23,197 bases of DNA from positions 1 to 23,197 of IMG/VR virus record IMGVR_UViG_3300042868_004379; one strand, written 5' to 3'. The translations under genes were made by a program, and so were the position numbers. The notes under the pieces were generated by a model. The model had not been told where the DNA came from and searched no databases. It saw only the letters and a program-made list of their open reading frames with translations. Positions 1,391-11,702 of this stretch are shown piece by piece. The DNA comes from a virus. Positions within the stretch are counted from its first letter, which is position 1, and each line of letters begins with the position of its first letter.

Positions 1391-1960
1391 ATGTCTACAC
1401 GCTATATCTTAGCTAATTCTATTGACCTACTCTATGTAGTTGCTGACTATGAAGGTCAGATATTGCGCTCAAATGATTTGTTTAAAGAGTATTCAAGTCA
1501 TATCAAACCTAAAAAGGTAAGTGATATAATCTCAGATGATACTGAGTTAGATGATTATGTAGCATCTGTTAAGAAAGCCATTGAGATTGAACCTAACCCA
1601 GTTAGAATATACGCACGAACCAAGCAGAAAAATAGTGGGTTAAGATGGAACTTGTGGAACTGCTACGCAATACTTGGCTCACTTCACTTTATTGGTTTTC
1701 AAATTACTGATGTGACCAGCATAACAAGTCACGAACACGAGAAACAAAAGCAGTTATTAGAAGAGTTCAGGTTTATGTTGAGTCACGAACTAAGGCAGCC
1801 TTTAACATCAGTTGCTGGTGTGGTTAAGTTGTTACTTGACAAAGATGGTAAGATGGATGATGCTGAACAAACTGAACTATTGAAGATGGTAGATGATTCA
1901 ATGAAGAGGTTAGATATAGCAGTTCATTTATTGGTTAAGAAAGCAACAAGGCAGCTATGA
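1391..1960 (+). CDS. PAS + HisKA (histidine kinase dimerisation) protein lacking the ATPase domain
   Basis: A 189-residue protein. Residues about 8-110 look like a PAS sensor fold (VVADYEGQILRSN near the start, FIGFQITDVT at the end). Residues about 118-186 form a HisKA/DHp helical hairpin with a clear H-box, FMLSHELRQPLTS, placing the phospho-accepting His at 132. The ORF stops after the second DHp helix: there is no HATPase_c domain (no N, G1 or G2 boxes) here or in the next ORF. It therefore cannot autophosphorylate alone; it could be a phosphate acceptor, a decoy partner for host kinases or response regulators, or a dimerisation module. It sits inside the lysis cassette, 2 bases after its neighbour and overlapping the next gene by 4. 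Confidence 0.82.
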   Translation: MSTRYILANSIDLLYVVADYEGQILRSNDLFKEYSSHIKPKKVSDIISDDTELDDYVASVKKAIEIEPNPVRIYARTKQKNSGLRWNLWNCYAILGSLHFIGFQITDVTSITSHEHEKQKQLLEEFRFMLSHELRQPLTSVAGVVKLLLDKDGKMDDAEQTELLKMVDDSMKRLDIAVHLLVKKATRQL

Positions 1961-7353: not shown

Positions 7354-7362
7354 CACCATTCA

Positions 7363-7470
7363 GAGGTAGTAGCCTGAGTGTATTGTAAAACTTTTCACCC
7401 TATGGTGACTGAGAGACTGAGAGTAAAATCAAAGTCGCTACTACCTCAGTCTTCATAGGGTATTTTTTTT
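7363..7470 (+). ncRNA. Structured RNA with mutually exclusive hairpins (attenuator/riboswitch-like leader or sRNA)
   Basis: The 133-base gap 7341-7473 contains a complex set of pairings. (a) GAGGTAGTAGC (7363-7373) pairs perfectly with GCTACTACCTC (7437-7447). (b) ACCCTATG (7397-7404) pairs with CATAGGGT (7454-7461), and directly inside it GACTGAG (7407-7413) pairs with CTCAGTC (7445-7451), making a 15-pair terminator stem followed by A and eight T (7463-7470). Stem (a) and the inner part of (b) share bases 7445-7447 and (a) crosses (b), so they compete. The T tract ends 3 bases before the ATG at 7474, which suits conditional termination. GACTGAGA is tandemly repeated at 7407-7422, giving another partner. 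No known riboswitch class is recognised. Confidence 0.6.
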
Positions 7471-7693: not shown

Positions 7694-8365
7694 ATGAATA
7701 GCAGAGATACTTGCATCTTTTATCGGTCAATGTTTGAATCAATAAAAGAACTACCTAAAGAGAATCAGGCTGAGTTATACAATGCCATCTTTGAATACTC
7801 ATTAGACTTTGTTGAACCTACTTTAAGTGGTCTATCATTGACTATATGGAGACTGATAAGACCAGTATTGGAGAAAGGTAATGCTAACTATATCAATGGA
7901 AGTAAGCCGAAGACTAAGCAAACAAGAAGCGAAACCGAAGCGAAACCGAAGCCAATTGTAAGCGAACAAGAAGCGAAAGTGAAGCGACTTGTAAGCGAAA
8001 GTGAAGCCTATAAGGATAAGGATAAGGATAAGGATGAAGATAATGATAAGGATAAAGTTAAGAGTGCTAAAGCACCTAACTATACAAAATTTACTAATGA
8101 AGACCTTATTGAACAAATCAAACCATTTATAGATAAGTATGGTAAAGATTTTTGTAATGCTTTTTACTTTTATTGGTCTGAACCTTTGCCTAATGGTAAA
8201 ATGAGAATGACTGGTCAAAAGGCTTGGAATATAAATAGAAGACTTGTAAATTGGAAACAGACAGAAAAACAACCTACTAACACTACCAACTTTGTCAAGT
8301 CAGCACCAGTAGTCTTTAATCGTTCATCACAAGGTCAACACTATGTAGGTGACGATGTCAAATAA
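7694..8365 (+). CDS. Replication-initiator-type protein (DUF6291-like N-terminus) with repeat-encoded linker
   Basis: A 223-residue protein in three parts. Residues 1-70 (FYRSMFESIKELPKENQ, then IWRLIRPVLEKGN) resemble DUF6291, found in Bacteroidota phage proteins. Residues about 71-123 are a charged low-complexity linker with an approximate 11-residue repeat (SETEAK, SEQEAK, SESEAY) and then (KD)n. Residues about 130-195 (FTNEDLIEQIKPFI, FYFYWSE, TGQKAWNINRRLVNW) resemble the C-terminal domains of phage replication proteins. The linker DNA carries an 11-bp-spaced repeat array, recalling lambda O, whose gene contains the origin. I infer that it binds those repeats and recruits DnaB, encoded at 9108. 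ATG 7694 was chosen over TTG 7682. Confidence 0.65.
   Translation: MNSRDTCIFYRSMFESIKELPKENQAELYNAIFEYSLDFVEPTLSGLSLTIWRLIRPVLEKGNANYINGSKPKTKQTRSETEAKPKPIVSEQEAKVKRLVSESEAYKDKDKDKDEDNDKDKVKSAKAPNYTKFTNEDLIEQIKPFIDKYGKDFCNAFYFYWSEPLPNGKMRMTGQKAWNINRRLVNWKQTEKQPTNTTNFVKSAPVVFNRSSQGQHYVGDDVK
7904..8014 (+). repeat. Iteron-like array, 11-bp period, consensus AAGCGAAANNG; candidate replication origin
   Basis: Units beginning AAGC start at 7916, 7927, 7938, 7949, 7960, 7971, 7982, 7993 and 8004, exactly 11 bases apart; one more AAGC lies at 7904, 12 bases before. Five units read AAGCGAA, the others differ at one or two positions. Because 11 is not a multiple of 3, the same DNA word is read in all three codon phases, so the repetition is at the DNA level. 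The period is about one helical turn, placing the units on one face. Location inside the initiator-type gene, followed by an AT-rich repeat, matches the lambda origin layout. Origin function is inference. Confidence 0.7.
8011..8058 (+). repeat. Hexanucleotide repeat (TAAGGA)n next to the iterons
   Basis: Four perfect TAAGGA units run from 8011 to 8034, followed by TGAAGA, TAATGA, TAAGGA and a partial TAAAG up to about 8057. They encode Lys-Asp/Glu-Asp dipeptides in the linker. The repeat is in-frame (6 bases), so slippage would change linker length without breaking the gene. It could serve as the easily melted segment beside the iterons. Confidence 0.75.
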
Positions 8366-8412: not shown

Positions 8413-9066
8413 ATGAAATACAAAGTACTTAATTTATATGCTTGTCTTGGTGGTAATAGATACCTATGGACAGATTGTGAAGTTACTGCTATAGAACTTG
8501 ATTCAGAACTTGCAAGAATGTACCAAGAAAGGTTTCCAAATGATATAGTAATAGTTGCTGATGCACATCAATACTTACTTGACCATTATAAAGAGTTTGA
8601 TTTTATTTGGTCTTCACCACCTTGCCCAAGTCATAGCAGAGCAAGATACTGGACGAGTTCAAACTATGATACTAATGTTGAAGCAGTCTATCCTGATATG
8701 AAATTGTATGAAGAGATTTTATTCTTACAACATTATTATAGAACTGGTAAGTGGGTAGTTGAGAATGTCATACCATACTATGAACCATTGATAGCAGCAA
8801 AAAAAAGAGGTAGACATTTATACTGGACTAATTTTAATTTGCCAAGTGATTTAGGAGATAGAAGAATTCAGATAGGTGCTGGAACTGATGAACTAAAAAG
8901 GTTATGTGAATTTCATAAGATTGATATTTCATCATATAAAGGTGAACAAAGTATGATTAAGGTTGCACGTAACTTAGTAGACTATGATGCTGGTTTGACT
9001 ATCTACAATGTTGCACGAGGCATATTTGAAAAGTCTAAATTCAATCAAACATCATTATTTGAATAA
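8413..9066 (+). CDS. Compact C5 cytosine methyltransferase-like protein without a target recognition domain
   Basis: A 217-residue SAM-dependent methyltransferase of the C5-cytosine type. Motif I is LNLYACLGG (residues 6-14), the catalytic PC is in SSPPCPSHS (Cys71), motif VI is ENV (117-119), and a motif VIII-like RGRHLYW lies near 132-138. The usual variable target recognition region and motifs IX-X are missing or too reduced to recognise, and the length is well below the normal 300-400 residues. It is therefore either a minimal enzyme, one using another protein for specificity, or one modifying a different substrate. It follows the TACGTA repeats and precedes dnaB. No restriction enzyme gene is nearby. 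Confidence 0.72.
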   Translation: MKYKVLNLYACLGGNRYLWTDCEVTAIELDSELARMYQERFPNDIVIVADAHQYLLDHYKEFDFIWSSPPCPSHSRARYWTSSNYDTNVEAVYPDMKLYEEILFLQHYYRTGKWVVENVIPYYEPLIAAKKRGRHLYWTNFNLPSDLGDRRIQIGAGTDELKRLCEFHKIDISSYKGEQSMIKVARNLVDYDAGLTIYNVARGIFEKSKFNQTSLFE

Positions 9067-9107: not shown

Positions 9108-10493
9108 ATGACCAACCCACAACAAGCACTCATAGGTATCTTAATGACTGGTGATACCCATCAGGAACTTATACCACAACTTGGTGAGCATCTTTTCAAT
9201 GAGGTGCTTACCTCAAGATGTTATGCAGTAATCAAGAAAACAATTGATAAAGGACTTACTCCTAACTTGGTCAATTTCTTTATGACTGCCAATGAACTTG
9301 ATAAGTTCACACCTAAAGAAACATCTGAGATAGTGATGTGGTCAAACAACCTGACCTATAATGAACCAGTCAATGAATACATTGCCATTCTTAAAGACAA
9401 TCACATCAAGCGGTCAATAGCATCAATAGTAACTGAGCAGTCATTAGGTCTTATCAATAACGATGGTTACACAACTGCCACATCAATAATTAAATCTCTT
9501 ACCAACCTACTTGATACTGGTACTAACTCAGATAATATTATTGACCTTTCTGAACTAACCAATGATGAACGTGAGGCATACTATCGTAGGGCAGCACTAA
9601 CACTATCAGGTAAGACTACTGGTCTTGAGACTGGTCTAAAGTCACTAAATAAGTTTACGGGTGGTTTTCATCCTGAGTTCATTATCATTGCTGGTAGACC
9701 AAGTATGGGTAAGACTGCATTAGCATTATTTCACGGAATGAAAAGTGGTGAGGCTGGTATCTATTTTAATCTTGAGATGAATAAGTCTCAACTATGTCAA
9801 AGGTTAATTTTACAAGATGCTGGTGATTCAATCCACTCTTCAAGGTTACGTGATGGTAACCTTAGTCAATCTGAGTTACATTCATTTGAAAAGGTAATAG
9901 GTAACATTGAGAAACAACCATTTCTAATCTACGATAAGGCAAGGTGTGGTGTACACGAGGCAATAAGGGTAATGAAGAGAGAGCATCGTAAGGGAAGGTG
10001 CAAGTGGGCAATTATTGACTACTTGCAACTAATGACCATAGAAGGGTTTAAAGGTGGCAATAGAGAGGCAGAGGTAGCTGAGATTAGTAGAACTTTAAAA
10101 GCAGCACAAAAAGAACTTGGCATACCAATTATAGCACTTGCTCAGTTGAGCAGAGAAGTTGAAAAGAGACCTGATAAGAAACCAATCCTATCTGACTTAC
10201 GTGAGTCAGGTTCATTAGAGCAAGATGCAGATAGTGTAGCTTTCGTTTGGAGACCATCATACTATGGATTGAATGATGAAGATGGTAATCCATACACTAA
10301 TCACATCTTCTACCTATTTGAGAAACATAGACAAGGTGCTACTGGTGTGGTTGAGTTCAGGCATTCACCTAACATGACCAACTTTACTGATGTGGTTACA
10401 CATGATATTGGTAGTACATACTTACCACAACCTAAAGACCTAAGACATTATGCAGACAAAGACTGGGACAAAGACACCAACCAACCATTCTGA
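9108..10493 (+). CDS. dnaB: Replicative DNA helicase, DnaB family
   Basis: A 461-residue DnaB-type hexameric helicase that unwinds DNA at the replication fork. The N-terminal helical domain begins at once (NPQQALIGIL), a linker follows, then the RecA-like domain with Walker A GRPSMGKT (196-203), a DnaB signature IYFNLEMNKSQL, Walker B WAIIDYLQLM (Asp304), and DLRESGSLEQDADSVAFVWR (363-382) typical of DnaB. There is no fused primase domain and no primase gene in the window, so host or distal primase would be needed. The start at 9108 is fixed by the N-terminal domain, which makes the promoter box 7 bases upstream notable. Confidence 0.95.
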   Translation: MTNPQQALIGILMTGDTHQELIPQLGEHLFNEVLTSRCYAVIKKTIDKGLTPNLVNFFMTANELDKFTPKETSEIVMWSNNLTYNEPVNEYIAILKDNHIKRSIASIVTEQSLGLINNDGYTTATSIIKSLTNLLDTGTNSDNIIDLSELTNDEREAYYRRAALTLSGKTTGLETGLKSLNKFTGGFHPEFIIIAGRPSMGKTALALFHGMKSGEAGIYFNLEMNKSQLCQRLILQDAGDSIHSSRLRDGNLSQSELHSFEKVIGNIEKQPFLIYDKARCGVHEAIRVMKREHRKGRCKWAIIDYLQLMTIEGFKGGNREAEVAEISRTLKAAQKELGIPIIALAQLSREVEKRPDKKPILSDLRESGSLEQDADSVAFVWRPSYYGLNDEDGNPYTNHIFYLFEKHRQGATGVVEFRHSPNMTNFTDVVTHDIGSTYLPQPKDLRHYADKDWDKDTNQPF

Positions 10494-10599
10494 ACCATTA
10501 CCTTGTGAGTTCAACTACTACGAAATAAGAGGTGGTAAGTGCGAATTTGCAAAGGTGTATTATGGTAAGATATTTTGTACTAATAAGAATTGTAAATAA
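10450..10599 (+). CDS. Small four-cysteine protein overlapping the dnaB end
   Basis: A 49-residue ORF in another frame, from ATG 10450 inside the last codons of dnaB to TAA 10597-10599. The stop overlaps the ATG of the next methyltransferase (TAATG), suggesting coupled translation. The first residues are Thr/Lys-rich (MQTKTGTKTPT). The remainder holds cysteines at 19, 31, 43 and 48 in an aromatic, basic context (CEFNYYEIRGGKCEF, FCTNKNC), compatible with a small zinc-binding fold. It fills the 105-base gap between dnaB and the methyltransferase. Start uncertain; function unknown. Confidence 0.5.
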   Translation: MQTKTGTKTPTNHSEPLPCEFNYYEIRGGKCEFAKVYYGKIFCTNKNCK

Positions 10600-11702
10600 T
10601 GATAAAAGTAGGTAGTGATTTTTCAGGTGTTGGTGCATTCAATCAAGCATTGATAAGATTAGGAATTGATTTTGAAGAGGTATATGCTTGTGATATGGAT
10701 AAGTATGCAAGGCAAACATACATTCACAATTATGGTGAACCATCGTACTATCCAACAAATGTCTATGATAGAGTAATACCAAAAGATTCACTTGACATAT
10801 ATATGACATCTCCACCTTGCCAAGCATTCTCATTAGCTGGTAAGAGATTAGGAAAAGAAGATAAAAGAGGTATCTTATTTTTTAACTCACTTGAGTTCAT
10901 CAAGCAAAACAAACCACGTTATTTTATATTTGAGAATGTTAAAGGTTTGCTTTCAGATGATGGTGGTAAGACATTTAGTGAATGGGTTAACCTACTTGGT
11001 GGTAAGTCAGTCAATGGAAACCAAATTTTATTTCCTTATGAAGATTCAGTACCTTATCACTTATATTGGGAAGTTCTTAATGCTAAAGAGCATGGAGTGC
11101 CACAAAATCGTGAAAGAGTATTTTTAGTTGGTATTCGTGATGATTCAGATAATAACTTTAGATTTCCAATTGAAGAACATTTAACTAAAAGATTGAAAGA
11201 TGTACTTGAACAAATTGTAGATGATAAATATATTATTACACAAGAAAAAATTGAATATTTAAAAAGAAGTGATGATACAGGTTGGGGTAAAAATTTTATT
11301 GATGATGAAAAAGATATATCATATTGTATTGATGCATCTTATTCTAAAGGACATCGTGGAGCAACAGTTGTTAAAACTGAACAAAATAATGTTAAAGTTG
11401 GGGACTATAGAAGTGATGAAGGTTTTAGGTGGAGAAAAGATGGTAATTCTCCAGCAATTATGGCAATGATGAGAGATACATGGAAAGAAAATTATACTGG
11501 ACAAAATCCACCAATTATAGAAAAAGATTATAAAATAAGAAGACTTACACCACGTGAGTGTTTTAGATTAATGGACTTTCCCGATACATTTACTTGGACT
11601 TGTTCAGATAGTCAAGCATACAAACAGGCTGGTAATTCAATTGTTGTGAATGTTCTTTATAAGATATTAAAGAATTTAAACCTATCAATAAGTACAACGT
11701 AA
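10599..11702 (+). CDS. DNA (cytosine-5-)-methyltransferase
   Basis: A 367-residue, full-length C5 methyltransferase that transfers a methyl group from SAM to cytosine in DNA. Motif I FSGVGAFNQAL (residues 8-18), motif IV SPPCQAFS with catalytic Cys74, motif VI ENVKGL (Glu112), motif VIII QNRERVFLVG (169-178), a variable target-recognition region of about 130 residues, motif IX RRLTPRECFRLMDFP (314-328) and motif X YKQAGNSIVVNV (341-352) are all present in order. No restriction partner is seen, so it is probably an orphan enzyme protecting phage DNA or marking it. The target-recognition part is very AT-rich, even for this window. ATG overlaps the upstream small ORF by one base. Confidence 0.94.
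   Translation: MIKVGSDFSGVGAFNQALIRLGIDFEEVYACDMDKYARQTYIHNYGEPSYYPTNVYDRVIPKDSLDIYMTSPPCQAFSLAGKRLGKEDKRGILFFNSLEFIKQNKPRYFIFENVKGLLSDDGGKTFSEWVNLLGGKSVNGNQILFPYEDSVPYHLYWEVLNAKEHGVPQNRERVFLVGIRDDSDNNFRFPIEEHLTKRLKDVLEQIVDDKYIITQEKIEYLKRSDDTGWGKNFIDDEKDISYCIDASYSKGHRGATVVKTEQNNVKVGDYRSDEGFRWRKDGNSPAIMAMMRDTWKENYTGQNPPIIEKDYKIRRLTPRECFRLMDFPDTFTWTCSDSQAYKQAGNSIVVNVLYKILKNLNLSISTT

Follow-up and report, generated by a model that had tools for sequence, protein, structure and literature searches.

This locus raises the question of why a short DNA word, AAGC, should recur at a fixed spacing inside a protein-coding gene of a virus, and whether this repetition serves the protein, the DNA or neither. 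The gene lies in a 23,197-nucleotide virus fragment (IMG/VR record IMGVR_UViG_3300042868_004379), which was analyzed in full and which we refer to as the window. Read from the letters of the window, AAGC starts at positions 7904, 7916, 7927, 7938, 7949, 7960, 7971, 7982, 7993 and 8004. The last nine units (7916–8014, + strand, AAGCGAAANNG) are spaced by exactly 11 bp. The original prediction had listed these nine units and a tenth at 7904, and we recovered the same starts; judging by its position and by comparison of the units, the tenth (7904–7914, + strand) is an outlier that lies out of register, 12 bp ahead of 7916. Among the nine regular units, AAGC is present in 9 of 9, position 5 is G in 6, positions 6 and 7 are A in 8, and position 11 is G in 7. 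All three codon frames are occupied, which agrees with the earlier remark that the DNA word is kept while the codon phase changes. The pattern AAGC-N7-AAGC-N7-AAGC occurs seven times in the window, every time in the array, while dinucleotide shuffles lead to an expectation of 0.15.

The gene that carries the array (7694–8362, + strand) is an open reading frame for a protein of 223 amino acids, which we propose to be a replication initiator. This protein matches the DUF6291 profile (PF19808, E 5e-14; 52.7 bits, with a curated cut-off of 27.2), as do 73 of 73 members of A3, and it also matches a PHROG of unknown function (PHROG 19415, E 1e-25). A DnaB-type replicative helicase is encoded at 9108–10493 (+ strand; PF03796, E 1e-73), and a single methylase-like gene separates it from the DUF6291 gene, so the initial assignment of a DUF6291-like gene located two genes before dnaB was correct. 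AlphaFold2 predicts an N-terminal DUF6291 domain of three helices (residues 1–70, 7694–7903, + strand; mean pLDDT 95), which is our proposed DNA-binding domain, and a C-terminal folded domain (residues 135–191, 8096–8266, + strand; pLDDT about 85–96). Residues 71–134 are predicted to be disordered, and the array and the tract that follows it therefore lie in a linker between two confident domains. Neither a profile search of the PDB nor a Foldseek fold search gave a significant relative of the N-terminal domain, the solved RepA_N and DnaD winged helices included, so DNA binding by this domain is proposed without support from a fold. The window protein lacks the DnaD C-terminal domain, and its Pfam and PHROG results contain no match to a phage replication protein O profile. 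We identified no DnaC/P-type loader in the window, and our literature search found no paper that names DUF6291.

The tract that directly follows the array (8010–8062, + strand) consists of (TAAGGA)n, as had been noted before, and TRF places its start at position 8010. It is C-poor and AT-rich (72% AT, compared with 54% in the array and 65% in the window), and we propose that it is an unwinding element. Its codons are biased throughout the family toward GAT, AAT, GTA and TAT. In 72 tails past the array, Asp is encoded by GAT in 166 of 169 cases (105 expected), Asn by AAT in 389 of 404 (237 expected) and Val by GTA in 167 of 204 (70 expected). The Lys and Glu codons in these tails are unbiased. 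The coding strand is thus held almost free of C, which might suit an unwinding element with strand asymmetry.

The repeat in the protein does not account for the array, because synonymous constraint sits at the words themselves. We recoded the linker synonymously, drawing on the phage's own codon usage. Eight linked AAGC pairs are observed in the linker, while the mean after recoding is 0.51 and none of 20,000 recodings reached the observed value. Likewise, identity at lag 11 is found at 62 of 109 positions, a value never reached in 20,000 recodings (null 37.1 ± 4.7). Of about 64 relatives, nearly all give the same outcome as the window in this test. A comparison with 30 relatives whose DNA differs by more than 8% locates the constraint: in the linker, Ser90 and Ser101 are each encoded by AGC in 30/30, Lys97 by AAG in 30/30 and Glu93 by GAA in 30/30, whereas among conserved residues of the folded domain Ser12 is encoded by AGC in only 1/30 and Lys22 by AAG in 6/25. 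Elsewhere in the phage, AGC, GCG and CGA have usages of 7%, 1.5% and 7%, and the codon choice in the array words is far from these values. We also considered mRNA structure as a reason for the codon choice and rejected it, as the array folds no better than shuffled sequences (z 0.15).

To extend the analysis to the whole family, we applied an iterated search to all loci and obtained 219 distinct DUF6291 genes, of which 91 are representatives at less than 80% domain identity. Relative to the synonymous null, only lags 11 and 22 are strongly raised in the 219 sequences (mean z of 3.2 and 3.3; next highest 1.5). The period is significant in 60 of the 91 representatives; in controls, the same test is positive for 19 of 1116 other coding segments (1.7%), 0 of 91 N-terminal domains and 5 of 91 C-termini. 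The word varies by clade while the period is constant: AAGC occurs in the window clade and others, AACC occurs in Riemerella phage GRAP2, Clostridium asparagiforme prophages and many more, and AACCCC and ACAACC are also used. Thus, across the set of 91 diverse genes the 11-bp period persists when linker residues differ, as the original prediction would lead one to expect. That prediction had also stated that it would be contradicted by relatives that keep the linker residues and lose the DNA period, or by relatives without repeats. Relatives of the former kind were not seen, given the nearly frozen word codons in the 30 diverged relatives. As for the latter, about 11 of the 91 representatives, several of them marginal family members, are missing a clear array. 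Fourteen representatives without direct repeats bear the same cores as palindromes, e.g., AACCnnnGGTT, AACCCCnnnGGGGTT and AAGCAAATGCTT. Word classes cluster on the tree of N-terminal domains (29 changes versus 44 when shuffled; 0/200 shuffles), where the count of changes is only approximate because the tree is built from few columns and has weak forks. PF19808 is present in only 4 of 395 genomes of one phylum, and so the family is seen mainly in phages and scattered prophages. A first scan of genome contigs with one distant member as query gave no matches. Two DUF6291 genes, each with its own array, occur together on one 62-kb contig (L007 and L013), and a single C. asparagiforme chromosome has two such loci (L153 and L154); these pairs might reflect co-resident replicons or joined contigs.

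In a scan of 2.9 million viral contigs that ignored the protein, we also looked for runs of five words, either AAGC or AACC, at 11 bp. Among the ORF-borne matches listed, DUF6291 accounts for 72 of 110 with AAGC and 24 of 70 with AACC, and in these matches the array starts at a median of 15 nt past the DUF6291 domain. Most of the remaining ORFs examined from these scans match phage replication families, namely replication initiation O-like, replication initiation protein, primosomal protein, DnaD-like helicase loader, DUF1376 and Lin1244_N. A control scan with a period of 10 was not cleanly negative: it found 95 stretches, and 14 of the 65 ORF-borne ones belong to DUF6291 genes, which makes 10 bp a minority period. 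At several loci in these scans (L354, L478, L493, L518, L533, L398 and others), 11-bp AAGC or AACC arrays lie in linkers of initiators other than DUF6291 (Lin1244_N, DUF1376, DnaD-like/O-like), and at others (L593, L596, L597 and more from the period-10 scan) initiator-like linkers hold AAGC words at a distance of 10 bp; families may differ in their spacing.

The genes and domains associated with DUF6291 are those of replication modules. DnaB is encoded near the DUF6291 gene, and often adjacent to it, in 12 of 91 loci, and in another group of relatives a gene for a G39P-family loader is directly downstream. On a record of a circular 51-kb Bacteroides finegoldii plasmid, the DUF6291 gene overlaps dnaB and has AACCCC at 11 bp. 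The C-terminal domain is swapped among relatives: in the pairs compared, N-terminal domains are 96–100% identical and arrays are 87–99% identical, while the C-termini are unrelated, and so the array stays with the N-terminal domain when the C-terminal domain is exchanged. One DUF6291 relative (L176) has a DnaD C-terminal domain (TIGR01446, E 6e-22; PF07261, E 1e-18). Other relatives have Phg_2220_C or a domain common to annotated Flavobacterium phage replication proteins that are encoded directly before a primase.

Upstream of the initiator operon is a conserved RNA leader (7357–7461, + strand) of about 105 nt, which has three helices, a pseudoknot and a terminator-like 3′ end followed by a U-run. 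In an alignment of 35 sequences, fitted to a model with nested helices and without the pseudoknot, 24 of 33 pairs have two-sided changes, 97% of pair cells are kept, and two-sided changes occur in 152 cells, versus 40 in shuffles. The structure is also borne out by 22 sequences aligned independently with MAFFT. The pseudoknot, in which GGTAGTAG (7365–7372) pairs with CTACTACC (7438–7445), also covaries. About 43 loci of the window clade carry this leader upstream of DUF6291 (e.g., L004:5868-6005 and L047:5868-6005), and in many relatives its end coincides with the start codon of that gene. Rfam gave no match above the gathering threshold, only sub-threshold matches. We regard the leader as a candidate attenuator or riboregulator that may control expression of the initiator by termination. 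Weak matches to the RNA model (E 0.01–0.03) occur upstream of other initiator genes (L161:2188-2315, L060:1953-2073 and L129:3620-3740), including a DUF1376-type initiator in a Flavobacterium phage, and this RNA may be more widespread.

Given these observations, it is highly probable that the array forms the section of a phage origin to which the initiator binds, located inside the initiator's own gene. Our best reading of the family is that DUF6291 proteins are phage replication initiators that carry their own origin iterons. The sequences show the array itself, selection on it as DNA, its position in the linker, its conservation through changes of word, the codon constraint on the neighboring tract and a setting among replication genes. 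From these we infer that the array acts as an origin, that the protein encoded by the gene binds it, and that melting of the tract and loading of the helicase would follow. In this model, the N-terminal DUF6291 domain would bind the AAGC-led iterons, which, at one repeat per turn, would all face the same side of the helix. Cooperative binding would then strain the adjoining C-poor, AT-rich tract so that it melts, and the C-terminal domain, directly or via a loader, would recruit the DnaB-type helicase. The array would be tolerated in a coding sequence because the disordered linker accepts a peptide that is dictated by the DNA. Weighing against this reading are the missing sequence or fold relative of the N-terminal domain among solved structures, the roughly 11 of 91 representatives without a clear array, the failure to identify a DnaC/P-type loader in the window, and the GC skew of the window, which has no visible turning point at 8 kb. 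As the record is a fragment of a virus, another origin may also lie elsewhere.

It is important to consider other explanations of the array. One is that an old 11-bp expansion by tandem duplication or slippage left a pattern with no function in DNA. Duplication has indeed occurred: the 11-residue (33-base) protein repeat that was pointed out along with the array is real, as the window has nine in-phase units compared with six in 20 of 30 relatives, and the length of the KDKD tract is variable. However, synonymous positions of the words are frozen in relatives in which the codons of the folded domain are scrambled, the period outlasts changes of the word and is rare in control segments, and decayed words at orthologous units with intact protein were not seen in relatives. 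We consider this explanation very improbable. Even less credible is selection for an 11-residue protein repeat, such as a charged linker with fixed spacing. Close relatives do have invariant Ser, Glu, Ala and Lys residues in their linkers, which would fit such selection, but the codons within the words are far from phage usage, AACC-type relatives keep the DNA period with a different peptide, and the linker is predicted to be disordered. The frozen synonymous codons at the words are a constraint for which neither a repeat in the protein nor past duplication accounts.

The main rival accepts a function in DNA and holds that the array binds DUF6291 or a host protein as an operator, incompatibility site or partition site, and not as an origin. 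Regulatory sites can occur within genes, and selection at the DNA level does not name the process that it serves. However, the array sits in the linker, away from the promoter, and the upstream RNA leader is already a candidate control element. A role in replication is also favored by the codon-constrained AT-rich tract after the array across the family, by similar arrays in proteins that match initiator and DnaD-like families, and by the helicase or loader genes that are often downstream. We therefore judge the operator or partition reading to be unlikely, and prefer the origin.

Origins inside initiator genes are established in other systems. In phage lambda (gene O, ori-lambda) and Stx phages, the iterons bound by the initiator are embedded, together with an AT-rich tract, midway along the gene for that initiator, and additional iterons lengthen the protein (PMC7466680). 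The DUF6291 gene is similar in having its array and AT-rich tract in its middle. Unlike lambda, whose four to six iterons are longer and are each an inverted repeat, it has a core of about 4 bp with an 11-bp period, and its N-terminal domain is DUF6291, without a match to an O-family profile. In Bacillus phage SPP1, gene 38 contains oriL, with direct repeats and an AT-rich unwinding element, and the system comprises initiator, loader and helicase, with G39P and G40P (PMC6316719). Some DUF6291 relatives resemble it in having a G39P-family gene immediately downstream, although the initiator domain is different. Another difference is that SPP1 possesses oriR as a further origin, while the 23-kb window contains no second array. 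In the pSK41 RepA_N initiator, the N-terminal domain binds Rep boxes that are central in rep, and C-terminal domains differ (PMC5703833, PMC7145576); the ori-encoded linker is dispensable (PMC5703833). That system differs in belonging to a plasmid and in having a winged-helix N-terminal domain and four Rep boxes, and DUF6291 has no sequence or fold match to solved RepA_N structures. What the DUF6291 gene shares with these systems is tandem initiator-type repeats between N- and C-terminal domains, adjoined by an AT-rich tract for which unwinding is predicted. By analogy, the best reading is that the layout equals that of lambda O, SPP1 gene 38 and pSK41 rep and that the locus works like them, while by the tests run the protein is not an O or RepA_N homologue.

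A broader hypothesis, whose chances we see as evenly balanced, is that helically phased short iterons in initiator-gene linkers are a widespread design of phage origins. Such iterons, with a core of about 4 bp and a spacing of 11 bp or, less often, 10 bp, would have arisen in or been exchanged across unrelated initiator domains (DUF6291, DUF1376, Lin1244_N, and O-like/DnaD-like helix-turn-helix). The core word would switch with the N-terminal domain, as direct repeats or palindromes beside a C-free AT-rich tract, and DUF6291 would be a new DNA-binding fold of initiators. A literature search of incomplete coverage found no prior description of 11-bp phage iterons in initiator linkers. The proposed function would give a job to DUF6291, a family annotated only as unknown, and would make the position of the origin predictable from sequence alone in many phages and prophages. 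Natural pairs of N-terminal domain and word could be a source for learning rules of DNA recognition. The array is also a clear example of a single DNA segment that is under protein-coding and DNA-binding constraints simultaneously.

Additional genes in the window are of separate interest. Genes of the cytosine-methylase type flank dnaB (8413–9066 and 10599–11702, both + strand); the match of the former is limited to the N-terminal part of the family, and this gene may be truncated or specialized. Elsewhere on this phage contig, an ORF at 1391–1960 (+ strand), in which an ATPase domain is not evident, has a sequence that resembles a PAS-type region and then a histidine-kinase H-box segment (MLSHELRQPLTS).
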